Origin: a virus
IMG/VR virus record: IMGVR_UViG_3300037245_001320
Location: 62,001-126,000 of that record
Direction: 5' to 3' (one strand)
DNA: 64,000 nt
This document shows positions 2,037 through 54,465 of the stretch, piece after piece (position 1 is the stretch's first letter; every line of letters starts with the position of its first letter). The translations under genes and the position numbers were made by a program. The notes under the pieces were generated by a model. It saw nothing but the letters and a program-made list of their open reading frames with translations. It did not search any database and had not been told where the DNA came from.

Positions 2037-3518
2037 TTGCAAAAAGAAAAAATTAAATTATTCAGTACCTTCACAGGAATAGGTAGCCCAGAGATGGCTA
2101 TGAGAAACATAGGATTGGATTTTGAGGTCGTAGGTATATCAGAAGTAGATAAGTGGGCTTTACAAGCTTACGACGCTATCCATTGTGAGAATGAACCAGA
2201 ACCAGAATACCCAACAAAAGAAGAAATGAAAGAATACTTCCTAGAAAAGAATATAGCTTACAACTTCTCCACAGGTAAATCAGAGATGCCTAGAAATGAA
2301 AGAGATCTACAGAGATTATATAAAGCACATAAGAGAAGTCGAAATTTTGGGGATATCAGATTGATAGATGAACACAATCTACCTGAGTTTAACTTCTTCA
2401 CATATAGCTTTCCATGCAAAAATATATCAGTTGCAGGTACACAATCAGGTTTAGATGAAGGATCAGAGACCCAATCATCCTTACTATGGGAGTGTAAAAG
2501 ACTAATAGAAGTAAACAAACCTAAATACCTCTTAATGGAGAATGTTAAGAATCTTGTAGGTAAGAAGTTCAAACCACTATTAGAGTTATGGATAGAGACT
2601 TTAGATGAACTAGGATATAAATCATCTTATAAAGTATTGAATGGTAAAGATTTTGGAGTACCTCAGAATAGAGAAAGAGTTATGATGATTTCTATTTTAG
2701 ATGATGGAGAAGAAGATTATATTTTTCCAGAAGGACAACCACTAGATATATGTCTACATGATGTGTTAGAGCCTAAAGTAGATGAAAAGTACTATATCAA
2801 CCCTGAGAAGTACAAGCATATAACAGCACCTTTACCCTCACAAGAAATAAGCTATTGTATTGATGCTAATTATCATAAAGGTATTTCTGTAGATCAATAT
2901 ATCTTGAAGAGAAGAAGACAATTAGTTCAGGTAGGTAATCTAGAGAATAAGATTCATTCTAATACCAGAGTTTATGCTGAGGAGGGATTAAGTCCAACTT
3001 TAAATAGTATGAATGGAGGCAACAGACAACCTAAGATCCTAGTAGACGGATGTGCTATAAGAGGTAGGACTCCTAAGGGAGAAGGCAAGGATACCCCTGT
3101 AGAGCAGAGATTAGAGATAAACAAACATGAGGGTGTTTCTAACAGTATAACCACTGTAGGGAAGGATAGTCTTGTTTGTGAGACATCTTATGGGGGAAGA
3201 ATCGTAGGTAGAAATCCAGATAATCCCAAAAGCAGAGTAAAAGGACTACCTACTGTACAGATGTTAGAGTTGAATAAAAACCCTGATATCTCTAATACTC
3301 TGTCTACCGTTCAAAAAGATTCTGTGGTAATGAATACTCATAGGAGAGTTAGAAAATTAACACCTCTAGAATGTTGGAGACTAATGGGCTACACAGATGA
3401 AGATTTTGAGAAGAGCAGGGACAAGGGGTTTTTAGCAAACACAAAGTTATACGAGAGAGCAGGAAGAGGAATTGTAGTTCCTATGCTTGAAGCATTACTT
3501 ACAAATCTATTTTATTAA
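2037..3518 (+). CDS. C5-cytosine DNA methyltransferase, probable carboxymethyltransferase
   Basis: A 493-residue Dcm-family enzyme with motif I FTGIGSP (12-18), catalytic PC (Cys127), ENV (168-170), QNRER (210-214), and late motifs RKLTPLECWRLMGY and AGRGIVVP. Between them lies a long target-recognition region with two related copies of a segment ending SNSITTVGKDSLV / SNTLSTVQKDSVV. Motif X normally reads AGNSIVV; here it is AGRGIVV, placing Arg477 (codon 3465-3467) at the conserved Asn. From memory, changing that Asn to Lys or Arg in M.MpeI (N374) lets it use carboxy-SAM. Start is TTG at 2037 behind AAGGAG that overlaps the previous stop. Linked to CmoA-like and PP-loop genes. Confidence 0.85.
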   Translation: MQKEKIKLFSTFTGIGSPEMAMRNIGLDFEVVGISEVDKWALQAYDAIHCENEPEPEYPTKEEMKEYFLEKNIAYNFSTGKSEMPRNERDLQRLYKAHKRSRNFGDIRLIDEHNLPEFNFFTYSFPCKNISVAGTQSGLDEGSETQSSLLWECKRLIEVNKPKYLLMENVKNLVGKKFKPLLELWIETLDELGYKSSYKVLNGKDFGVPQNRERVMMISILDDGEEDYIFPEGQPLDICLHDVLEPKVDEKYYINPEKYKHITAPLPSQEISYCIDANYHKGISVDQYILKRRRQLVQVGNLENKIHSNTRVYAEEGLSPTLNSMNGGNRQPKILVDGCAIRGRTPKGEGKDTPVEQRLEINKHEGVSNSITTVGKDSLVCETSYGGRIVGRNPDNPKSRVKGLPTVQMLELNKNPDISNTLSTVQKDSVVMNTHRRVRKLTPLECWRLMGYTDEDFEKSRDKGFLANTKLYERAGRGIVVPMLEALLTNLFY

Positions 3519-3530
3519 ATAACTAGAATA

Positions 3531-3555
3531 AGGCATCCTTTTATGGTGTCTTTTC
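3531..3555 (+). terminator. Terminator after modification operon
   Basis: A seven-pair stem with G-U pairs (AGGCATC with GGTGTCT) around loop CTTTTAT is followed by TTTT. It lies just after the methyltransferase stop and before a new promoter, so it closes the modification operon. Confidence 0.6.
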
Positions 3556-3577
3556 TGCATTAATTAAAAAACATCAG

Positions 3578-3601
3578 AAAAAATTCCCACTATGCTATAA
3601 T
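3578..3601 (+). promoter_or_regulatory. Phage-type extended -10 promoter (copy 1)
   Basis: A-tract then TTCCCACTATG, C, TATAAT at 3596-3601. The same element occurs seven times in the window, always oriented towards genes. The TGnTATAAT form is an extended -10; no TTGACA-type -35 is needed. Predicted start of transcription is near 3608, directly before the structured RNA. Confidence 0.8.
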
Positions 3602-3607
3602 AGAGTT

Positions 3608-3780
3608 AAGAGGAAACTGAACCATCCTCAAAAACTACTTGACATTCTGATAAAAGTAAATTAAAATTGGAGAATATATAAGAACTCCATTTAAATGAAA
3701 ACAGGAGAATAATAAAGATTTCAGAATGGTCTTTAAAATATTCGGTTCAGACCTGTGGAAACTTAGATGGAGTTCTTTTT
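3608..3780 (+). ncRNA. Pseudoknotted structured RNA before HNH gene
   Basis: Four complementary segments can be read by eye. Hairpin D pairs GAGGA (3610-3614) with TCCTC (3625-3629); its loop holds CTGAACC (3617-3623), which pairs with GGTTCAG (3744-3750). CATTCTGA (3643-3650) pairs with TCAGAATG (3721-3728). AAGAACTCCAT (3680-3690) pairs with ATGGAGTTCTT (3767-3777), followed by a T-run. The last helix crosses the other two, a pseudoknot, or competes with them as a terminator switch. It starts at the predicted start site of a phage promoter and ends 14 bases before the HNH start codon. A second RNA at 54273-54434 has the same order and spacing of helices with different bases. No known family recognised. 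Confidence 0.6.
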
Positions 3781-3793
3781 ATATAATAGGTAA

Positions 3794-4855
3794 ATGAGTA
3801 AAGAAAAAGAGAAAGATGTTGTTAGTGTTGGGATGAAGAAGTGTAGAACTTGTGGGAAAGAGAAGGAATCTACTTTAGAGAACTTTCACGCAGGAAGAGG
3901 AAGCAAAGGAGGATTTCTACTTGATTGTAAAGAATGCAAGCGAGCCAAGGAAAGAGGAGACAAATATTATTTAGAACACTTTGAAAGAGAGGAAGACACT
4001 ACTCCAGCAGGATATAAGAAATGTAGTGATTGTGGGAAAAATAAAGAACAAACTGCTGAGTTTTTCCACAGAGACAAAGGATTTAAATCAGGCTTTAAGG
4101 CAAGATGTAAAGATTGTGAAAATATTATTAGAAACAAGCCAAAAAGAAAAGCCAACGATAAAAAACAAGCACAGAACCGCAACGCTAGACCAGAAGTAAG
4201 AATTCAGAGAAAGGAACAGAGAAAGGAATATAAAGCTAGACCAGAAGTTACGAAACACACTAAAGAGTATAATAAAGAATATTTATCTAGACCAGAAGTT
4301 AAGAAACATACTAAAGAGTATCATAAAGAATGGTATAAAAAACCAGAAAATAAAGAACGTAAAAAACAACAAGATAGGATAAATTCCCAAAAGCCTGAAA
4401 ATAAAGCTAAAAGAGCTGAAAGACGCAGAGAAAGATACAAAAATGAACCCTTATTTAGAATAAGGGTTAATCTTAGCAGAAATTTTTCCAGTCAGCTAAA
4501 AACACTTGGAACAAAAAAGCCCTCTGGAACTATGACTTATACAGGATGTACAAATGAAGAACTCTTAAAACATTTAAACACAGGCGAGTACACAATGAAG
4601 GACTACATGACAAACACCCCTTTGGAGACCTTCTTCGATTTTGATCACATAATACCTTCTCAGTATTTCTTAGATAGAATTAAAACAGATGAAAACGATA
4701 AAATAACAAAAGAGACACTTCCTTGGTTGCATAATTGGTGGAGCTACAGAAACATGAGGATTTGGCCTCATATACCCAATATTATTAAAGGAAAGAATAT
4801 AGATCAGGAGCTAATAGCTAAACATGGTATAGAAGATCTGTTAACTATAGATTAA
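3794..4855 (+). CDS. HNH homing endonuclease with zinc modules
   Basis: A 353-residue protein. Two N-terminal zinc modules each have two CxxC pairs (C17/C20/C45/C48 and C77/C80/C105/C108). A basic linker (about 185-260) repeats RPEV..HTKEY units. The C-terminal HNH domain has DHIIP at 284-288 and RNMRIWP near 318-324. Such proteins cut DNA and spread their own gene. It is a free-standing insert between the modification operon and portal, with its own promoter and terminator, behind the structured RNA. Its ribosome site is weak (ATAGG), so translation may depend on the RNA fold. Confidence 0.8.
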   Translation: MSKEKEKDVVSVGMKKCRTCGKEKESTLENFHAGRGSKGGFLLDCKECKRAKERGDKYYLEHFEREEDTTPAGYKKCSDCGKNKEQTAEFFHRDKGFKSGFKARCKDCENIIRNKPKRKANDKKQAQNRNARPEVRIQRKEQRKEYKARPEVTKHTKEYNKEYLSRPEVKKHTKEYHKEWYKKPENKERKKQQDRINSQKPENKAKRAERRRERYKNEPLFRIRVNLSRNFSSQLKTLGTKKPSGTMTYTGCTNEELLKHLNTGEYTMKDYMTNTPLETFFDFDHIIPSQYFLDRIKTDENDKITKETLPWLHNWWSYRNMRIWPHIPNIIKGKNIDQELIAKHGIEDLLTID

Positions 4856-6589: not shown

Positions 6590-7657
6590 ATGTCTAAACA
6601 AACCCTACAAGAAGAAACTTCAGACACACTCACAGCACACCAAATAGAAGTAAACAAGTTCGGTCAGTCACAGAGAAAGAAAATAATGGATGATATATCC
6701 CTACTACTAATAGATATAAAGACAACGCTCTTAAACGGCTCTGAGGAGGTTACTTTAGGAGAGTTGCGGGATATGATCAGAACAGCCAATCGGATGTTTA
6801 AGGAAGGCTTCAGAGAGATTAGAAACAGTGTTGAAGAAGGAGCCTTTGAACTCTTACAGGTAGAACTTACTGGGCAGACAAAATTACTCCAAGAATTGAT
6901 AGATGATTATGAAGTGCAGTACACAGTTAGAGAACCTTCACATGTATTAGCAACCAGAGCTTTAAAAGATCTCCCTATAGAAGATTTAACATTTGCAACA
7001 TGGTTTGACATATGGGAGAAAAAAACTAATGGTAGAATGAAATCAGGATTGTTCTCAGAACACTCAGATGATAAATCCAGAACAGATTTAGTACAAGATG
7101 TGTTTGGTAGAGGTAAGGATCCATTTGTATTTCAAACATTTTTAGGATCACATAGAGATATGAACGGATTACTAATTTCTATTGTTGATGGAACTAATTC
7201 AATAAGTACCAGTTCTATCGCAGATTCCAATTCAGGTATTATTGAAGCAGTTATCTGGAATAGCTGCTTATGCAGCACAACTTGCGCTCGCTGCGCTTCA
7301 CTTCACGGAGCAATTCGATGGATAAATGGAGTAGATGAAACAGACGGAAATGAAATTCCATTGCATCCCAATTGTTTGTGCTTTTGGACATATAAGTACA
7401 AAAACGTAAAATCGATGGATGCGAAAGTACCCAAAACAGCACGTTCAGCAATAAACTCCAACGAAGTGCCAAAAAAATTCCCACTATGGTATAATGGAGT
7501 TAGTCAGAAGAGACGAATAGAATTATTTGGGAGGACAAAAGTGAAAATGATAGATTCAGGAGAAATAAAAGTTTCACAATTACTCACAAAAAAGAATCGA
7601 AGAGTGTACACTCTCGATGAACTTAAACAAAAGGGTTATAAAATACCCACAAAATAA
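6590..7657 (+). CDS. Minor head protein (SPP1 gp7 / Mu F-like)
   Basis: A 355-residue protein with the SPP1-gp7/Mu-gpF signature near 215-265: VIWNSCLCSTTCARCASLHG followed by PLHPNCLCFW, a cysteine/histidine pattern seen in these minor capsid proteins. They sit next to the portal and assist head assembly or DNA ejection. Start has AAAAGGAACATC before ATG. A copy of the phage promoter lies inside the coding sequence (7471-7495) and is translated as KKFPLWYNGV, so this protein has a promoter-encoded segment near residue 300. Confidence 0.75.
   Translation: MSKQTLQEETSDTLTAHQIEVNKFGQSQRKKIMDDISLLLIDIKTTLLNGSEEVTLGELRDMIRTANRMFKEGFREIRNSVEEGAFELLQVELTGQTKLLQELIDDYEVQYTVREPSHVLATRALKDLPIEDLTFATWFDIWEKKTNGRMKSGLFSEHSDDKSRTDLVQDVFGRGKDPFVFQTFLGSHRDMNGLLISIVDGTNSISTSSIADSNSGIIEAVIWNSCLCSTTCARCASLHGAIRWINGVDETDGNEIPLHPNCLCFWTYKYKNVKSMDAKVPKTARSAINSNEVPKKFPLWYNGVSQKRRIELFGRTKVKMIDSGEIKVSQLLTKKNRRVYTLDELKQKGYKIPTK
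7471..7495 (+). promoter_or_regulatory. Phage-type promoter inside minor head gene (copy 3)
   Basis: Seven-A tract, TTCCCACTATG, G, TATAAT (7490-7495), identical to the intergenic copies although it is in coding sequence. It would add transcription of scaffold and major capsid genes, which are needed in the greatest amounts. Confidence 0.75.
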
Positions 7658-13564: not shown

Positions 13565-14836
13565 TTGGGTGGAGTAACAACTTTAACAACAGAGAAGATA
13601 AATGAGAAAATGATTCCAAAGGGATTCAAATTATTAACTACGGAATATAGTAATAATAGTACAGTAATGGAATGGGAATGTCAAGAGTGTCTGGGTACAT
13701 TTCCAGATAAACTAATTAACTTACAGAGAAGTTTAAGATGTAAATGCTGTAATGGTGTAAAGAAGCATAGTGTAGAAAGTATTAGAGAAGAGTTCTTAGT
13801 AAAAGGGTTTGAGCTATTAAGCACAGAATATGTAGATAATACCACAGGGATGGAATGGAAACATTTAGAATGTGGGGAAGTATTTCCTTGCGGGTTAAGA
13901 AATATGCAAAGAGCCTTATATTGCAGAGTTTGCGAAGGACCTAATGAGTACACAGTCGAAAGTATAAGAGGACAAATACAACCTTTCGGAATATTCCTAT
14001 TAAGTGAGGAGTATACAAATCAAGATCAACTATTAAATTGGGTGTGTATTCATTGTGGACATGAGTGGGAGAAGAGTAGAACAGTAATGACTGATCATTG
14101 TTTTTGTCCTGAGTGTCGAGATGATAAGCCTTTAAGCATGATAGAAATAAATGAAAGAATGAAGAAAAGACCTTTTATTTGTATTACAGAAGGTATTCAT
14201 TTAAGATCAGCACAAGTAGAGTGGCAGTGTACTAATGAAGAATGTAAACACACTTGGTTTAGGTCGTTTGTAGAAACAGGAGCTTGGGGTGGAGATTGTG
14301 TTGAATGTAGAGACCATAAACCCTATACAGTACAGTTTATTAAAGAGAAGTTATTAAATGATGAGAGAAATATTGTAGTAGTAACAGATCTCCCAGATGA
14401 AACACTTACACCCGCCGTAACTAATATGAGATGGAAATGTCTTATATGTACACAAGAATGGCCTACAGTTGTAGGTTCTGTTATGAGTGGAGAAACAGGA
14501 TGCCCTAAGTGTAATAAAACTTCTGTAAATAAGATTATTGCTGAAAGAAATAAAAAGCAATGGTTAAAAGAAGATGGAAAGGTATATGTTATAAAATGCT
14601 GGGATGAAGAAACAGGAGAAGTATTTTACAAAATAGGGGTAACAATACGAAAGACAGTAAACAGAACTTATGAAATACCCTACACATGTGAGGTACTTAC
14701 AGAAATAAACACAAATAGACACGATATGTATTATATAGAGCAGGATTTACATCAAATAAACTCTGCTACAAGTTACTTACCAAAGAAACACTTTGGAGGG
14801 AAGCACGAATGCTTTTCTAGTGTAATAGGATTTTAA
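13565..14836 (+). CDS. GIY-YIG-type homing endonuclease with zinc repeats
   Basis: A 423-residue protein. Residues 1-330 hold about five treble-clef-like repeats, each with two CxxC pairs and a W.C motif. The last 85 residues carry VYVIKC and FYKIGVT, the two strands of a GIY-YIG-like nuclease, and a later IEQDLH acid. It is inserted between the tail chaperones and tape measure, which are normally adjacent, so it is a mobile intruder. Start TTG at 13565 behind AAGGAGATTTAGA. The gene at 53058-54251 has the same architecture. Confidence 0.8.
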   Translation: MGGVTTLTTEKINEKMIPKGFKLLTTEYSNNSTVMEWECQECLGTFPDKLINLQRSLRCKCCNGVKKHSVESIREEFLVKGFELLSTEYVDNTTGMEWKHLECGEVFPCGLRNMQRALYCRVCEGPNEYTVESIRGQIQPFGIFLLSEEYTNQDQLLNWVCIHCGHEWEKSRTVMTDHCFCPECRDDKPLSMIEINERMKKRPFICITEGIHLRSAQVEWQCTNEECKHTWFRSFVETGAWGGDCVECRDHKPYTVQFIKEKLLNDERNIVVVTDLPDETLTPAVTNMRWKCLICTQEWPTVVGSVMSGETGCPKCNKTSVNKIIAERNKKQWLKEDGKVYVIKCWDEETGEVFYKIGVTIRKTVNRTYEIPYTCEVLTEINTNRHDMYYIEQDLHQINSATSYLPKKHFGGKHECFSSVIGF

Positions 14837-35843: not shown

Positions 35844-36826
35844 ATTATCTCTCCTACGTTCCCTATTATTTTAAGTGTCTCCACTTCTTTTAAAATCTCT
35901 TCTAAATTATGTTCAACAACGAGAGAATAATCTATAAAACAATATTTTTCATGATTTTCTTTTTTTGGCCAAATCCTCATATTTGTAGGACAGTTACATA
36001 ATTGCATCAATCTCTTAATCTCATTTTTATGTTTTTTCTCAGATAAAGTTAAAATAATGTCTCTAAAATAACTTAAAGGTATGATGTGATCTATGTGGTA
36101 TTTATTGGAATCTTTATTATAGTCCTTCCAAGTATACAATCCTTTATTGAATTGTTTTATATAATCCTCCCAAGAATATCCATTATCATAAATAATATCT
36201 TTAGTATGAAAGTCTTCCTGATTCTGTAAGTGTCTCCGTATACGCTTACAGAATTTCCTTAATTTCCTATTCATCTTGCCTTTTGGTGAATTGTTATAGG
36301 CTTTTGTGGTCCTCCTTCCTTGCTCAGACTCCCGATAACCTTTTGCTTTTTTCTTCCCTTCCTCTGTTTGTGCTCTTTTCCTGTTTCTTTCTTTGACTTC
36401 AGGCCGAGAATGATACTCTTTAGCATACTCTGGACAATATTTGGCAGGTGTTGTTAATTTGTATAGGTTTTCCCATGTTTGGTGTAATTCTTTATTGTTT
36501 TTATGGTCATAGAATAACAGTAGTGCATTTGTGCTTTTTCGTTCTTCTGTTGAAAGTAACTTAAATCGTCCTCCTTTTTTGAGCAATATTGCATGCATAT
36601 CTAGTAAAGAAAGCTTCTGCATACCTTTACGAGCACACATAATACAATTAGATCTGTTGTTTAGTACTTCAGAAACGGTGTTATTCCAACTATGTCCGCA
36701 CCCATCAACCAAACACTCCCACTCCAGTACTTCTCCCGCTATCTTATATTCCTCAGAGACTAATTTTATATTTCGTCCCTCCAACCTAGTCTCAATTTCT
36801 TTTTTTGTTGTTAATTTTCTTCCCAA
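35831..36826 (-). CDS. HNH homing endonuclease with zinc module
   Basis: A 331-residue protein: N-terminal treble-clef-like module (WECLVDGCGHSW, CIMC), basic linker with RPEVKERNRKR repeats, and HNH domain YHIDHIIPLSYF followed by CPTNMRIWPKKENHEKY. Closely parallels the HNH protein at 3794-4855. Start is TTG at 36826 with AAAGGAAG upstream. It has its own phage-type promoter directly upstream, set against a terminator. Confidence 0.8.
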   Translation of the reverse strand: MGRKLTTKKEIETRLEGRNIKLVSEEYKIAGEVLEWECLVDGCGHSWNNTVSEVLNNRSNCIMCARKGMQKLSLLDMHAILLKKGGRFKLLSTEERKSTNALLLFYDHKNNKELHQTWENLYKLTTPAKYCPEYAKEYHSRPEVKERNRKRAQTEEGKKKAKGYRESEQGRRTTKAYNNSPKGKMNRKLRKFCKRIRRHLQNQEDFHTKDIIYDNGYSWEDYIKQFNKGLYTWKDYNKDSNKYHIDHIIPLSYFRDIILTLSEKKHKNEIKRLMQLCNCPTNMRIWPKKENHEKYCFIDYSLVVEHNLEEILKEVETLKIIGNVGEIICKK

Positions 36827-36862
36827 TTATTTTACTTCCTTTTGTTCTGTTATATTAAATTT

Positions 36863-36893
36863 AAAAAGGCAGAAGATAAAACTACCTCTGCCT
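36863..36893 (-). terminator. Terminator overlapping a promoter start site
   Basis: On the minus strand AGGCAGA (36893-36867 outer bases: 36893-36887 and 36873-36867) forms a seven-pair stem with a 13-base loop, then TTTTT. It ends readthrough from the gene at 36928. The promoter -10 box at 36897-36902 puts its start site inside the 5' arm, so messages from that promoter would lack part of the stem. Confidence 0.65.
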
Positions 36894-36896
36894 CTT

Positions 36897-36920
36897 ATTA
36901 TACCATAGTGGGAATTTATT
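36897..36920 (-). promoter_or_regulatory. Phage-type promoter (copy 6)
   Basis: Minus strand: AAATAAATTCCCACTATG, G, TATAAT (36902-36897). The A-tract is broken by one T, unlike other copies. Drives the HNH gene at 35831-36826. Confidence 0.75.
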
Positions 36921-36927
36921 TTAGTAT

Positions 36928-37263
36928 TTATGAAATTCTCACTTCTGAAATAAATTTTAAATCATCTTTGGAGAGCTCTAATCCAAACAAATCATACATT
37001 TCTAAGATATAGTCAGATATTCCATGTATAGGATCAGAAGCAAATAAATAGTATCGCTCTTCTTCTGAATATGAATCTCCTCCTCTCTCAGCTTCAATGA
37101 AGTTTGGTTCTGGATGTTCTTGTGCCTCAGCATAAAGATATAAACCATATACAAGCCCTTCTCGTTTTATGTAATCCCAAAACCCATCTAAATTACTAGC
37201 TGTACAAAAGCCCTCAGAAATCTCAATACCTATACCAGCACATGAATTGTAATCTACACTCAT
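36928..37263 (-). CDS. Unknown acidic protein
   Basis: A 111-residue acidic protein (SVDYNSCAGIGIEISEGF start; ERGGDSYSEEERYYLF in the middle). Its start overlaps the stop of the gene upstream. No family recognised. Confidence 0.55.
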   Translation of the reverse strand: MSVDYNSCAGIGIEISEGFCTASNLDGFWDYIKREGLVYGLYLYAEAQEHPEPNFIEAERGGDSYSEEERYYLFASDPIHGISDYILEMYDLFGLELSKDDLKFISEVRIS

Positions 37264-49517: not shown

Positions 49518-50926
49518 TTGTTCTCCTTTATAGTTCTATCTTCTGATTTTTCCACTATGTTATTATTCCATGCTAATGCAAATTTATCTACCTTCACATC
49601 CCTTAATGTAATAGGCTTTAGCAATCTTAAACCATCTGGGTTAGAACTTCGGCTCAGTGAAGTGTATAATTGACCACAAGAAAAGAAACCTCTTCCTGGA
49701 TTTATTAACATATACTCGAACTGAAGCCCTTGTGATTTATGCACAGTAATAGCATAACAAACGTTCAGAGGGAATTGTATTACCGATCCTATAACATCTT
49801 CATCAGGACCTAATATATCCCATTGATAAGGAGCGATTTCAAATGTTCTGCTTCCCACCTTCACGCGAATATAATGATCACAATTACCACGTAAGAATCT
49901 TCCTCTTGGTAAAGAAACGATTGTTCCAATGGTACCGTTCACATAACTTCCATTCTGAGCATTAGCTCTGAGCATAACCTTACAGCCTTTCTTTAAAACT
50001 AATTCATCTGGAACTATCTTCTCACTAGCCTTCACATCCCCATAAATAACAGTTGAGATGATCGTTTCAGGCTCATCAATCTTAGCCATCTCTCGATTAT
50101 TTATTACCTCAACATCTTTATTCGTTGTACACAATGTAGTATACTCTGTTTCAGGTGTTGGGAGAACTGTATTTATGTACTCTTCCTCTGAACTAATTAA
50201 AAAATGATTGGACAGTTCTTCAATACTTTCCCAAGTGACAGCTCCTGTTCGCACCTTTCTTAAAGCATTTAAGTAACCAACATGTTTAGTTCTATAACTC
50301 TTCAATAAAGATAACTCTTTGAAATTCATTAACTGATATAATCGAGATCCAAAGAAGTAATGTGTGAAGGTATCAAAATCATTTAATAACTCATTCTTTT
50401 CATCTTTCTTTAATATCGACTCAAGCTGCAAAGGGTCACCTAACAGTATTATTTGAATATGTTTAATCCTATCTAAAGCTTCTTCTACATTATTTAAATC
50501 ATGTGCCCCAAAATACCCTAGCAAACTCCATAGGAACTTGTGTATTAGGTCAATACGCACCATACTGATTTCATCTATCACAATTCTAGTGACGTTCTCC
50601 CTAAAGAACTTGTAATTTTTAGAACTGGTCACTTGATCCTCTGGATGTATTTTACTGATGTCGAATTCCATGGCTCTGTGAAGTGTAGATGCTTTTACAC
50701 CAACCTTCTCTGTAATATTTATAGCAGAAATTCCTGTGGATCCTGCGTAGATGGTAGATCCATCTGTTTTGTATTCTGGATCATGGGCTAATATGTTTAC
50801 GATTTCTGTCTTACCTGAACCACCTGGTCCTAGTATGCAAATATTATCTCCTTTCTTAACATGTCCCAGAATTACTTTTAGTTCTGGATTAATCTCAATA
50901 TAGCTGAGGTCTTTTTGTTTTGTCAT
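49514..50926 (-). CDS. SF1B DNA helicase (Dda/Pif1/RecD-like)
   Basis: A 470-residue helicase: Walker A GPGGSGKT (33-40), motif II IVIDEISM, motif III LLGDPLQLES, and C-terminal AITVHKSQGLQFE and YTSLSRS motifs of the UvrD_C_2/Pif1 type. Likely a 5'-3' helicase in replication or recombination, like T4 Dda. Belongs to the leftward early operon. Confidence 0.8.
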   Translation of the reverse strand: MTKQKDLSYIEINPELKVILGHVKKGDNICILGPGGSGKTEIVNILAHDPEYKTDGSTIYAGSTGISAINITEKVGVKASTLHRAMEFDISKIHPEDQVTSSKNYKFFRENVTRIVIDEISMVRIDLIHKFLWSLLGYFGAHDLNNVEEALDRIKHIQIILLGDPLQLESILKKDEKNELLNDFDTFTHYFFGSRLYQLMNFKELSLLKSYRTKHVGYLNALRKVRTGAVTWESIEELSNHFLISSEEEYINTVLPTPETEYTTLCTTNKDVEVINNREMAKIDEPETIISTVIYGDVKASEKIVPDELVLKKGCKVMLRANAQNGSYVNGTIGTIVSLPRGRFLRGNCDHYIRVKVGSRTFEIAPYQWDILGPDEDVIGSVIQFPLNVCYAITVHKSQGLQFEYMLINPGRGFFSCGQLYTSLSRSSNPDGLRLLKPITLRDVKVDKFALAWNNNIVEKSEDRTIKENK

Positions 50927-50930
50927 TTTA

Positions 50931-51113
50931 TTATTTGTTCTCCTTTATTATCTTCTTTCCTTCTTCATATATTACATAAACCACATACCATAACACTATG
51001 CACATCAATAAAGGGATAGGCATAGGTACTTCTAACTTCGCTGTACACCATCCAATCAGTGCACTGAGAATGAAAAATAAGAAAGTCCATGTATGTTTTA
51101 AATATTTATTCAT
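50931..51113 (-). CDS. Small membrane protein
   Basis: 60 residues with two hydrophobic segments (WTFLFFILSALIGW and LLMCIVLWYVVYVIY). ATG at 51113 chosen: TTGGGGAG precedes and it overlaps the upstream stop; the longer frame (to 51158) starts without a ribosome site. Role unknown. Confidence 0.5.
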   Translation of the reverse strand: MNKYLKHTWTFLFFILSALIGWCTAKLEVPMPIPLLMCIVLWYVVYVIYEEGKKIIKENK

Positions 51114-51315
51114 CAAGAACTCCCCAACAAGATCCCATAGGAACTGTATCGAATCCACATCCTTTTAATTGCTTAGTTACCCAATCTGCTTTCTTTTCCT
51201 GAGACATCTTTACAATTTCTTTATTGTATTCTTTATCTAAACAAGTTAGAACCAATTGGTAACATATGGCTATAAGTTTGTTTTCTCTGCTAATACTCAA
51301 TTTTTCTCCTTTCAA
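51106..51315 (-). CDS. Unknown small protein
   Basis: 69 residues, ending CGFDTVPMGSCWGVLDE. Ribosome site overlaps the zinc-ribbon gene upstream. Not recognised. Confidence 0.45.
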   Translation of the reverse strand: MKGEKLSISRENKLIAICYQLVLTCLDKEYNKEIVKMSQEKKADWVTKQLKGCGFDTVPMGSCWGVLDE

Positions 51316-51586
51316 ATGTTTCTGAATCTAGTAACCTACCTGAGAGGAATTCTCGGGTACTACTGTGAAAACAACTCCAACAATAAGTATCTTTCTCCTC
51401 ATTGAATATAGTGAAAGCATCCGTTTTATTGAAAAAAGATTTCCTCCCGTTATTAGAGTAGTCTATTATGTACTCTGTGTATACTTCTGGATTGACTATC
51501 TTTGCTCCACAATTTGAACAAAAATTACTCCTGTTTACTGAGTTTCCACACTCACATTCAAAAGGGTTTCCATTTTTAGTATTCAT
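51290..51586 (-). CDS. Zinc-ribbon protein
   Basis: 98 residues; N-terminal zinc ribbon with CECG (about 10-13) and CSNCG (22-26), and a later CWSC. Downstream of two small hairpins (51590-51660, ACCC/GGGT and ATACC/GGTAT stems) next to its AGGAGG ribosome site, which may regulate it. Function unknown. Confidence 0.55.
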   Translation of the reverse strand: MNTKNGNPFECECGNSVNRSNFCSNCGAKIVNPEVYTEYIIDYSNNGRKSFFNKTDAFTIFNEEKDTYCWSCFHSSTREFLSGRLLDSETFERRKIEY

Positions 51587-51660
51587 TTACTCCTCCTATA
51601 CCCTTCAGGGTACGATTACAGCCATTATTACTAAACTTATACCCGTTAAGGTATACTTTT

Positions 51661-51933
51661 TTAGTTCTTATCTACCTCTTTCCATAACATTTCAACACCC
51701 GCTACAAATCTCTTCCCATTAAGAAAATGCTTTTTATAACTATCCATAACAAATACGGGACGATTATCTTTAGTTACATGGAGTAGAATCCTTTCCCTAT
51801 AACCAGATGATTCATTATGAGCAACTAAAACAGTTCGGCAGTCCTCAATGATCTGTTTACTTATTGCATCTATACTTGCCCCAATACTGTTATTTTCAAA
51901 ATCAAACGTTATATTATTTTTACTTATCTCCAT
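51661..51933 (-). CDS. Unknown protein
   Basis: 90 residues (MEISKNNITFDFENNSIGASIDAI). No motif recognised. Its start adjoins the stop of the membrane-anchored protein upstream. Confidence 0.5.
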   Translation of the reverse strand: MEISKNNITFDFENNSIGASIDAISKQIIEDCRTVLVAHNESSGYRERILLHVTKDNRPVFVMDSYKKHFLNGKRFVAGVEMLWKEVDKN

Positions 51934-52626
51934 CTACTCATTCTCCCATAAAGGATTAGCATGAGTATTTAAAAACTCCATAGCTTCCTTAAATAATTTA
52001 TCAGGAGAACTTTCTCTCACTGTATGCTTTACCTCTTGCCTAAATCCATTCATAGATCTGTCATACCATACAATAAGTGTAAAATCCGCTTTCCAATCAT
52101 ATTCATTCTCCACATATAATGCAAATCCTATAGAGCTATTTTGCAATACCCACAATAATTGTCTTAATGTCTCGGGTTTTCCCTCTATATAAGAATAAGG
52201 TGTTGGATCTAGTACAGTGTTAAAATGTATTTCTCCTGCTTGGCATATATTTATAGCTTCAGGTAGAATATCGTTTTTAGATATACCTTCCAATGTTCCT
52301 GTATCTATTTCTAAATCATACCATACCTCACTGCCATCATCAGAATTATATAAATCAAATGTTAGGAATGATTTATTATCGAGCAACGTTTTAAGTAATA
52401 TATCAAAATCATCTCCTTTATACTTTTTGGTTGGGTACACTTTCTTGGTTTCTTTATGTGTATTGACTGTTGTCTCATAAATGACTTCTGTATTTTTCAT
52501 ACCTGTTCTAACTATAATCAAAGCTGTTAGTGCTAATAACAATGCTCCAATACTACAACACTGTGAAAATGTTAACCTCCTGACTTTAGTAAGGGTTTTG
52601 TTTGTGAATTGTTTTAGTTTCTCCAT
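51934..52626 (-). CDS. Single-pass membrane protein
   Basis: 230 residues: basic cytoplasmic start, one membrane segment (about 25-43, CSIGALLLALTALIIV), then a soluble acidic domain with FDLYNSDDGSEVWYDLEIDTG. N-in topology is predicted, putting the domain outside the cytoplasm. A sigma70-like promoter lies just upstream, so it is an early, separately controlled gene. Possibly host take-over or exclusion; not demonstrated. Confidence 0.55.
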   Translation of the reverse strand: MEKLKQFTNKTLTKVRRLTFSQCCSIGALLLALTALIIVRTGMKNTEVIYETTVNTHKETKKVYPTKKYKGDDFDILLKTLLDNKSFLTFDLYNSDDGSEVWYDLEIDTGTLEGISKNDILPEAINICQAGEIHFNTVLDPTPYSYIEGKPETLRQLLWVLQNSSIGFALYVENEYDWKADFTLIVWYDRSMNGFRQEVKHTVRESSPDKLFKEAMEFLNTHANPLWENE

Positions 52627-52659
52627 ATATTTTATATCTCCTTTTATCCATTTACGAGT

Positions 52660-52688
52660 AGTTTACCATAGATAATGTTTGGTGTCAA
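52660..52688 (-). promoter_or_regulatory. Sigma70-like promoter
   Basis: Minus strand TTGACA (52688-52683), 17-base spacer, TAAACT (52665-52660) with TG upstream of the -10. Drives the membrane protein gene at 51934. Confidence 0.7.
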
Positions 52689-52713
52689 GTGTTTTAAATA
52701 AAAAATAACCCAA

Positions 52714-53013
52714 TTAAGGGCTCTCTGTGTTATTTGTGTCCTTTAATTCCATTTCCTCTACTTGTTTCAAGTAATCAGATGGAGTTTGTGTCCTGTCAAA
52801 AAAAGTTTCTTTTAGAAATTGTTCTGCTTTCCCAATGTTACAGTCATGTAGATGGGAAACCTCTTCTGCTAAAGATATAGTATCTTTTGTTGATTGCCCA
52901 CATTCTCTACATAACCAACTACATCCACGGACGTGTGGTCCCCAACGCCTTTTGTAGTCATAACCAGACGTAACAATATCCCAACTCTCTTTAACTGCTT
53001 TATATAAATTCAT
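52714..53013 (-). CDS. Small zinc-binding protein
   Basis: 99 residues with CSWLCRECG (about 31-39) and a later HLHDC, a probable C2H2/C2HC-like site. Start at ATG 53013, directly behind AAGGAGAGATAC; the frame's earlier ATG overlaps that ribosome site. Own promoter upstream. Function unknown. Confidence 0.5.
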   Translation of the reverse strand: MNLYKAVKESWDIVTSGYDYKRRWGPHVRGCSWLCRECGQSTKDTISLAEEVSHLHDCNIGKAEQFLKETFFDRTQTPSDYLKQVEEMELKDTNNTESP

Positions 53014-53037
53014 GTATCTCTCCTTATGCATGTAAGG

Positions 53038-53066
53038 ATACTACCATGTTAGGGTATTTACGTCAA
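53038..53066 (-). promoter_or_regulatory. Sigma70-like promoter
   Basis: Minus strand TTGACG (53066-53061), 17-base spacer, TAGTAT (53043-53038). Its -35 lies in the last codons of the GIY-YIG gene. Confidence 0.6.
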
Positions 53067-54251
53067 TCCTTCTTTCTTAATTTTCTGCTTTTCTTTATAC
53101 TCATCTTTAAGTTCTTGTACTTTCTTATCTAGCTCTTTTTGTGTGTACGGGACTAGTTGTGTGAAGCATTCCGTATAGCCTGCAAAATACTTCTTAGGCT
53201 CGTACTTGTATTCTTTATGTAATTCGTGTAGTGCGTTTTCGATGTATGTAGCATTATATTTATTTGTTTCTATTTTCTTTACAACTGTGTAACTATAAGG
53301 TAAGTTTTGTCCTGAAAAACGGTATGTTACTTTCCCCGAAGTAATCCCAATTTTCTTAAAACGTTCTTGGGAGTTGAACAGAGTAATGAAGTATACAGTT
53401 GCTTTACTTAGTAACCATTCTTTCTTTTTATGCTCTGCTGTGGGAATAGTGTAGGGTGCATTATTTGGTGGATGGCAACAGGAACAGATAGGATAACAGG
53501 AAAGAACGTTCCAACTTATATCTCTATTAAATCCACATTTCTTACATGTGAACCTTACAGTAGATATAGCTGTCACATCATAAGGAATAGTCGTACACTG
53601 CCAATTACTATAAGCTTGTTCTGTTAATCTATACATTAACAATTCCTTACTCATATTTAATGTATTACTGCATCTAGGGCATAACTGTTTTCGATGAAAC
53701 ATGTTTGTCCACAAAGGTTTCCACACATAGTTACAAGTAGCACATTTACAATGAATGGGTATATAGCAATCCACATATTCTTTAGATAATAATTGTATAG
53801 AAGCATAAAAAGGATGAGCTAATTTTTCAAGTATTCTTTTCTGTGACCAATGCTCCTGTTGAGAACAACGACTACAATTTGAGGATCCTGTTTTTATATA
53901 AGTCCAAGCTATATCCCATATATAACCATCAATAGTACATTGCCATTTCATTTCCTCAGGAGAGTACACCTCTGATAGTCTTTTTATAGGTAATTTATAT
54001 TCGTCTATATACTTATCTATTAAGGGAATTGTCCACCGAGTAACTTTACTGGTAATAGTATTCCATGTTTCTTCTGTTATTCTATAGTATGTTGCTTTTT
54101 GGGGTTTTTGCCTCTTTGTCCAGTACGTATCTTTTACGATCTTATGCTTAGCCTTATCTAGCTTTTCCAATCTTCTTATAGCAGCTAATAAATTACTATG
54201 GTCTCTTCCTGTTTCCTTTGCTAAATCTAATGATGATTTTAGTTCTTCCAT
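53058..54251 (-). CDS. GIY-YIG-type homing endonuclease with zinc repeats
   Basis: A 397-residue protein. N-terminal helix-turn-helix-like strip (LDLAKETGRDHSNLLAAIRRL), four or so treble-clef modules (CSRCS, CATC, CPRCS, CKKCG, CSCCH), and a C-terminal nuclease with VYFITLF and FKKIGIT, then IENALHELH. Same build as the protein at 13565-14836. It is downstream of a phage-type promoter and the second structured RNA. Ribosome site AAAAGGAAATAAG. Confidence 0.8.
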   Translation of the reverse strand: MEELKSSLDLAKETGRDHSNLLAAIRRLEKLDKAKHKIVKDTYWTKRQKPQKATYYRITEETWNTITSKVTRWTIPLIDKYIDEYKLPIKRLSEVYSPEEMKWQCTIDGYIWDIAWTYIKTGSSNCSRCSQQEHWSQKRILEKLAHPFYASIQLLSKEYVDCYIPIHCKCATCNYVWKPLWTNMFHRKQLCPRCSNTLNMSKELLMYRLTEQAYSNWQCTTIPYDVTAISTVRFTCKKCGFNRDISWNVLSCYPICSCCHPPNNAPYTIPTAEHKKKEWLLSKATVYFITLFNSQERFKKIGITSGKVTYRFSGQNLPYSYTVVKKIETNKYNATYIENALHELHKEYKYEPKKYFAGYTECFTQLVPYTQKELDKKVQELKDEYKEKQKIKKEGLT

Positions 54252-54272
54252 TCTTATTTCCTTTTCCCAATT

Positions 54273-54434
54273 AAAAAAGCTTACTAATAAATTCCCTCTA
54301 AGTTGACCCGAAATACAATACCAGTGTTTCTTGCATTTCTCTTAAAGGGATTTTTACTAATAAGCTCTGTTTGAGTTCACTATGATTTTTCACTGGATTT
54401 CTTAAAGAAGGGTCAAGTTCTTTTTATATCTTCT
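54273..54434 (-). ncRNA. Pseudoknotted structured RNA before GIY-YIG gene
   Basis: Minus strand, same plan as the RNA at 3608-3780. Hairpin D: AAAGAA (54423-54418) with TTCTTT (54409-54404); its loop holds TTGACCC (54416-54410), which pairs with GGGTCAA (54309-54303). CCAGTG (54396-54391) pairs with CACTGG (54326-54321). GCTTATTAGTAAA (54365-54353) pairs with TTTATTAGTAAGC (54291-54279) over 13 pairs with two G-U, followed by six T. Shared bases with the first RNA are few: TATT(T)CGG before the loop partner, GGT after the second helix, and ACTTAG near the last arm. Begins near the start site of a phage promoter. Confidence 0.6.
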
Positions 54435-54440
54435 TCCTCT

Positions 54441-54465
54441 ATTATACCATAGTGGGAATTTTTTT
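54441..54465 (-). promoter_or_regulatory. Phage-type promoter (copy 7)
   Basis: Minus strand: seven-A tract, TTCCCACTATG, G, TATAAT (54446-54441). Transcribes the structured RNA and GIY-YIG gene; start predicted near 54434. Confidence 0.8.

Follow-up and report, generated by a model that had tools for sequence, protein, structure and literature searches.

The phage record IMGVR_UViG_3300037245_001320 comprises 154,018 bases, of which bases 62,001-126,000 were analysed here as a window of 64,000 nucleotides, and positions refer to this window unless the record is named. A gene for HE1, a zinc-ribbon HNH/endonuclease VII-like protein of 353 amino acids (3794-4855, plus strand), lies behind a structured element, E1, whose helices span 3610-3778, and no gene around the element is split by it. 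On the same strand, E1 is preceded by an extended -10 promoter (3578-3605, TATGcTATAAT) that matches a 28-bp motif, AAAAAATTCCCACTATGCTATAATAGAG, with 0 mismatches. The position of the promoter predicts a transcription start near 3608, about two bases before the first helix; a preliminary description had the predicted transcript begin at that helix. The four helices drawn in that description are all present in E1. The first is hairpin P1 (3610-3629), which pairs GAGGA with UCCUC (3610-3614/3625-3629) and shows an H-type geometry common to the four copies of the element described below. The P1 loop, CTGAACC (3617-3623), forms the 5' strand of pseudoknot K1 and pairs over seven bases with GGUUCAG about 120 bases downstream (3744-3750). 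The eight-pair helix B joins CAUUCUGA (3643-3650) to 3721-3728. The long helix C crosses both K1 and B and pairs about 3680-3692 with about 3765-3777; its 11 pairs grow to 13-15 with wobble pairs and are followed by TTTTTATAT, so that the 3' strand and T-run (3765-3784) are terminator-like. The drawing overlooked two further helices, hairpin D (3713-3735; strands 3713-3719/3729-3735), whose loop supplies B with its 3' strand, and the inner stem C', in which ACAGG (3701-3705) pairs with 3752-3756 in the minimum-energy fold. The pseudoknot-free minimum-energy fold of E1 already contains P1, C, C', and D (z -3.1).

The architecture, which consists of the P1 hairpin, the loop-to-3' pseudoknot K1, strand B paired with the D loop, and the long helix C with a T-run at its end, has exactly four occurrences in the 154-kb phage, two inside the window (E1 and E2) and two outside it (E3 and E4). 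E2 lies on the minus strand (54,423-54,272), where the preliminary description had pointed to a related element at 54273-54434, and it proved to be a second copy of the architecture. All of its features are on that strand. The E2 promoter (54437-54464) matches the motif with 0 mismatches, hairpin P1 (54404-54423) pairs AAAGAA with UUCUUU, and its loop, UUGACCC (54416-54410), is the 5' strand of K1, the 3' strand of which is GGGUCAA (54303-54309). The 5' strand of B, CCAGUG (54391-54396), is complementary to CACUGG in the loop (54326-54321) of hairpin D (54311-54338). The 5' strands of C and C' occupy 54341-54366, and their 3' strands and the T-run occupy 54272-54302. The pseudoknot-free minimum-energy fold of E2 contains P1, C, C', and D (z -3.5). 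The gene behind E2 encodes HE2, a T5orf172 (GIY-YIG-like) zinc-ribbon endonuclease of 397 amino acids (53058-54251, minus strand; PF10544, 22.5 bits against a cut-off of 20; phrog_681, endonuclease). E3 lies at about position 150,347 of the phage record (G000, minus strand) and E4 at about position 53,552 (plus strand); E3 precedes a gene for a small HTH-HNH protein, and E4, as E1 does, precedes one for a zinc-ribbon HNH/endonuclease VII-like protein. In each case the 28-bp promoter lies 10-30 bases ahead of the copy and an endonuclease gene comes immediately after the copy, so RNA structure separates promoter and endonuclease start in all four. By family and position, these enzymes are probably homing endonucleases.

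The dimensions of the element are similar among the four copies. P1 has 5-6 pairs and is separated by 1-2 bases (L1) from a K1 of 6-7 pairs, which is followed by 0-1 base. B has 6-8 pairs and fills the D loop, and it is spaced from P1 by 12-13 bases in E1, E3, and E4 and by 7 in E2. The distance from B to C is 24-30 bases and that from the end of K1 to C is 1-12 bases. By a strict count helix C comprises 13-18 pairs, and by one that includes wobble and outer pairs 15-21; the duplexes in E3 and E4 are long and perfect. The helix sequences are almost wholly different between copies while pairing is kept, and no reliable sequence similarity or conserved aptamer core was found among the four, their overall similarity being marginal. 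In most columns of every helix, indeed nearly all, two to four pair types occur among the four copies, all of which come from one genome. The MAFFT alignment of the copies was wrong in its 3' half, so a helix descriptor took the place of a covariance model based on it.

A strict five-helix descriptor run over both strands of the phage genome scored E4 at 121.5, E3 at 102, and E1 at 96, compared with up to 81 for the unconstrained background. In 9.4 Mb of dinucleotide-shuffled phage sequence searched with the spacing rules, the top score was 86.5, which is below all three. E2 misses the strict descriptor solely through its strict contiguity rule. A relaxed rule, in which four helices are required and C is then judged by duplex energy, returned exactly E1-E4 from 538 kb searched on both strands; the energy of C in these is -29 to -39 kcal/mol, against -9.9 for the next place. 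The four-helix part alone is present in all four copies and in 0 of 8 other promoter leaders; when each leader was shuffled 2000 times, it arose 2-9 times. Together with the pair changes in every helix despite marginal sequence similarity, these results make a conserved structured RNA secure, and the four copies support the claim that a pseudoknotted RNA whose last helix resembles a terminator stands between a phage promoter and the gene of a homing-type endonuclease. No Rfam family matched within the window at gathering score, and over the elements themselves nothing beyond chance appeared at E values up to 10 (E1) or 1 (E2-E4). Searches of phage records other than those very close to this genome, made by sequence and not by shape, returned no relatives of E1-E4, and the architecture was not found beside the endonuclease homologues fetched from IMG/VR and phage records.

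The promoter motif occurs five times in the window, where 0 are expected, and 12 times in the genome when mismatches are allowed. In viral and genome collections it was found in only two related contigs, and the remaining matches were taken as chance. Comparison of the leaders behind all 12 promoters identified the architecture in four, and further leaders of the motif promoter also open with short hairpins. Under one rule, a helix followed by a T-run is present in 5/5 endonuclease leaders with a motif promoter and in 0/7 leaders of other genes (Fisher p 0.0013), a contrast that partly reflects length, as the other-gene leaders are mostly short. Some hairpin with a T-run arises in about 11-13% of shuffled long leaders. 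The fifth of these endonuclease leaders, that of an HNH enzyme (36780-37010, minus strand, L014), has the motif promoter followed immediately by a simple hairpin and T-run. One occurrence of the motif (7472-7499) lies in frame, as KKFPLWYNG, inside a MuF/SPP1 gp7-like gene and is nearly base-identical in contigs L002 and L036. Additionally, a zinc-ribbon GIY-YIG-like endonuclease gene (13565-14836) features a TTGACA-type promoter and a short leader without the RNA.

Relatives of two of the endonucleases occur without the RNA. A relative of HE1, 41% identical in alignment, occupies the equivalent position of a related phage contig and has neither promoter nor RNA, a relative of HE3 that is 75% identical has a short leader without it, and relatives in Vibrio phage VnaP and Pseudoalteromonas phage H101 leave no space for it. 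The RNA is thus tied to the way this phage runs its endonuclease genes and not to the endonuclease families. Comparison of 2037-4855 with contig L002 (5784-8190) shows the order DNA methylase, terminator, endonuclease, and portal in both, and the promoter and RNA only in this phage.

The helices drawn in the preliminary description are there; their simultaneous formation is doubtful. C is longer than one helical turn, and its formation along with K1 and B would produce a true knot, a topology that is exceptional among solved RNAs (PMC11218946). Additionally, in all four copies the bases linking B to C can form a hairpin, AT, with the 5' strand of C, and AT is the best fold of the linker plus that strand. 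AT pairs UGGAG (3668-3672) with CUCCA (3685-3689) in E1 (3668-3689) and lies at 54358-54382 in E2. The joint energy of AT in the four copies was matched in 57 of 10,000 linker shuffles (p 0.006) and the joint count of linking pairs in 878 of 10,000 (0.09), so that AT as a hairpin mutually exclusive with C is suggestive only. The summed energies of K1, B, and AT, with no loop costs, are about -22, -22, -20, and -19 kcal/mol for E1-E4, and those of C and C' are about -21, -26, -27, and -26 kcal/mol, values of the same order of magnitude. Because of the order in which the strands are made, the pseudoknotted domain is favoured to form first, and K1 would close just ahead of the 3' strand of C. Since C crossing K1 and B would be a knot and the linker can pair with the 5' strand of C in all four copies, alternation of two folds is more likely than one static fold. 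The earlier interpretation of the element is partly supported.

The best reading of the element, held tentatively and at somewhat below an even chance, is that it is the 5' leader of the endonuclease message and brakes transcription in cis, as an attenuator. Competing folds are preferred on the grounds of the knot problem, AT, the similar energies, and the order of synthesis. C and its U-run would be the terminator. P1, B, AT, and D would be made in sequence, after which the D loop would capture B and, finally, the P1 loop would capture the 3' strand of K1; the pseudoknotted domain would keep the 5' strand of C inside AT. The 3' strand of C would be made one to 12 bases after K1. If C wins, the long C-C'-D hairpin and U-run would release an RNA of about 170 nucleotides and the endonuclease would not be expressed; if the pseudoknotted domain holds, the polymerase would read into the gene, whose ribosome site would be outside the structure. 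Most transcripts would probably be stopped early and the cutter kept scarce. The sequence shows the helices with their conservation and covariation, their position, the T-runs, and the lack of the RNA in relatives; the transcription start, termination, alternation of the folds, and low endonuclease expression as the purpose are inferred. T-runs follow C in 4/4 copies, and the Shine-Dalgarno sequences of E2-E4 lie downstream of C and the T-run, as does the weak one of E1. With the 5/5 and 0/7 leaders, these features point to predicted termination and not to masking of the ribosome site; masking by C is rejected for E2-E4, the sites of which lie outside C. A small coding leader was also rejected, as no reading frame is common to the copies. 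The element has the stable hairpin and U-run of an intrinsic terminator, with C stems that are A+T-rich and carry a large insert, unlike textbook terminators. A plain terminator would be enough for braking, which by itself therefore does not account for so elaborate a fold.

A free-standing phage small RNA of about 170 nucleotides is unlikely, but it is the strongest of the alternatives to the attenuator. C and the U-run would then be its 3' end, the knotted fold would act in trans on a protein or RNA, and the endonuclease would be a passenger. The element's own promoter, its compact conserved fold, its U-run 3' end, and its strongly diverged sequence with shape kept would all suit such an RNA; however, all four copies stand directly before endonuclease genes and nowhere else in the phage, and inspection showed no conserved stretch of unpaired bases that could serve a trans target. 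A static 5' leader that causes no termination and instead protects or processes the message, by blocking a 5' exonuclease, by an RNase III site in C, or by both, is improbable, because T-runs follow every copy of C and because folding all at once would give the knot, although it would account for the long perfect duplexes of E3 and E4 and for the short hairpins that start other leaders of the motif promoter.

A regulated switch, in which the pseudoknotted domain is stabilised by a small molecule or by a protein of phage or host and the endonuclease is thereby turned on at a set time, is a decidedly improbable reading. It is consistent with the predicted mutual exclusion of AT and C in 4/4 copies and with the completion of the 3' strand of K1 1-12 nucleotides before that of C, the decision point of transcriptional riboswitches, but support for AT is modest and the four copies have no sequence-conserved core, unlike small-molecule aptamers. 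Transcriptional riboswitches and attenuators with pseudoknotted antiterminators resemble E1-E4 in the possible choice between a terminator and a pseudoknotted alternative, made just before the 3' strand of the terminator; E1-E4 differ in the lack of a conserved ligand-binding core and of an Rfam match. There is a small chance that the element represents a class of regulated phage RNA switch that is new, a doubly pseudoknotted antiterminator domain, defined by its shape rather than its sequence, that stands before several unrelated homing endonucleases and times their expression. An RNA inhibitor of the endonuclease protein is very improbable: E1-E4 share with type III toxin-antitoxin loci (ToxIN, CptIN) the gene order of promoter, pseudoknotted RNA, terminator, and nuclease gene (PMC5086642), but no repeat array or tandem repeats were seen in the leaders, the four partners are DNA endonucleases of several families and not ToxN-like while the RNA architecture is one, and relatives of HE1 and HE3 occur without the RNA.

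Free-standing homing endonucleases burden the phage that carries them and, to our knowledge, their restraint in phages outside the T4 group is poorly known. The endonuclease messages of phage T4 carry terminators and inhibitory structures, and RNA controls of T4-type endonucleases have been reported for I-TevI, segB, and Aeh1 mobE, with terminators inside mobE and segF (PMC2988022). The likeness to E1-E4 is that RNA structure or intrinsic terminators keep expression low, as predicted here; however, the T4-type controls are short hairpins over the ribosome site or terminators in the gene, whereas E1-E4 feature a multi-helix pseudoknotted leader of about 170 nucleotides with its own promoter, four times. 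In seg43 of Aeromonas phage 25 a stable hairpin lies unexplained upstream of a free ribosome site (PMC2988022), and only 44 nucleotides separate the genes, too little for the architecture described here. RNA control of phage homing endonucleases is known, and the architecture itself is previously undescribed. The four copies, with shape kept and sequence diverged, offer a natural set in which co-transcriptional folding of pseudoknots can be tested against termination, and a sequence-blind descriptor that picks them out cleanly would permit a wider search.

HEARO/omega RNA is likewise a structured RNA upstream of an HNH nuclease (IscB), and this identity was rejected: E1-E4 have no Rfam match, the endonucleases have no IscB-family match in the scans run, and a GIY-YIG-like enzyme is among the partners. 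Group I introns with homing endonucleases also place a structured RNA beside such an enzyme, and were rejected because E1-E4 have no RF00028 match, the endonuclease is outside the RNA, and no interrupted gene surrounds E1. The only such introns found, four in number (RF00028, 53-87 bits), are clustered just upstream of E4, outside the window (G000 50,795-53,371; L031:11795-14371). Each is too short for an endonuclease gene, and the free-standing HE4 could be the nuclease that moves these adjacent introns. Relatives of HE3 sit within the gene of a DNA methylase, around the DPPY codons (L039), and Vibrio phage VnaP also has a split methylase. In the phage analysed here, HE3 lies just upstream of a methylase with its frame split at the DPPY motif (L009:560-735; also L039 and L041).
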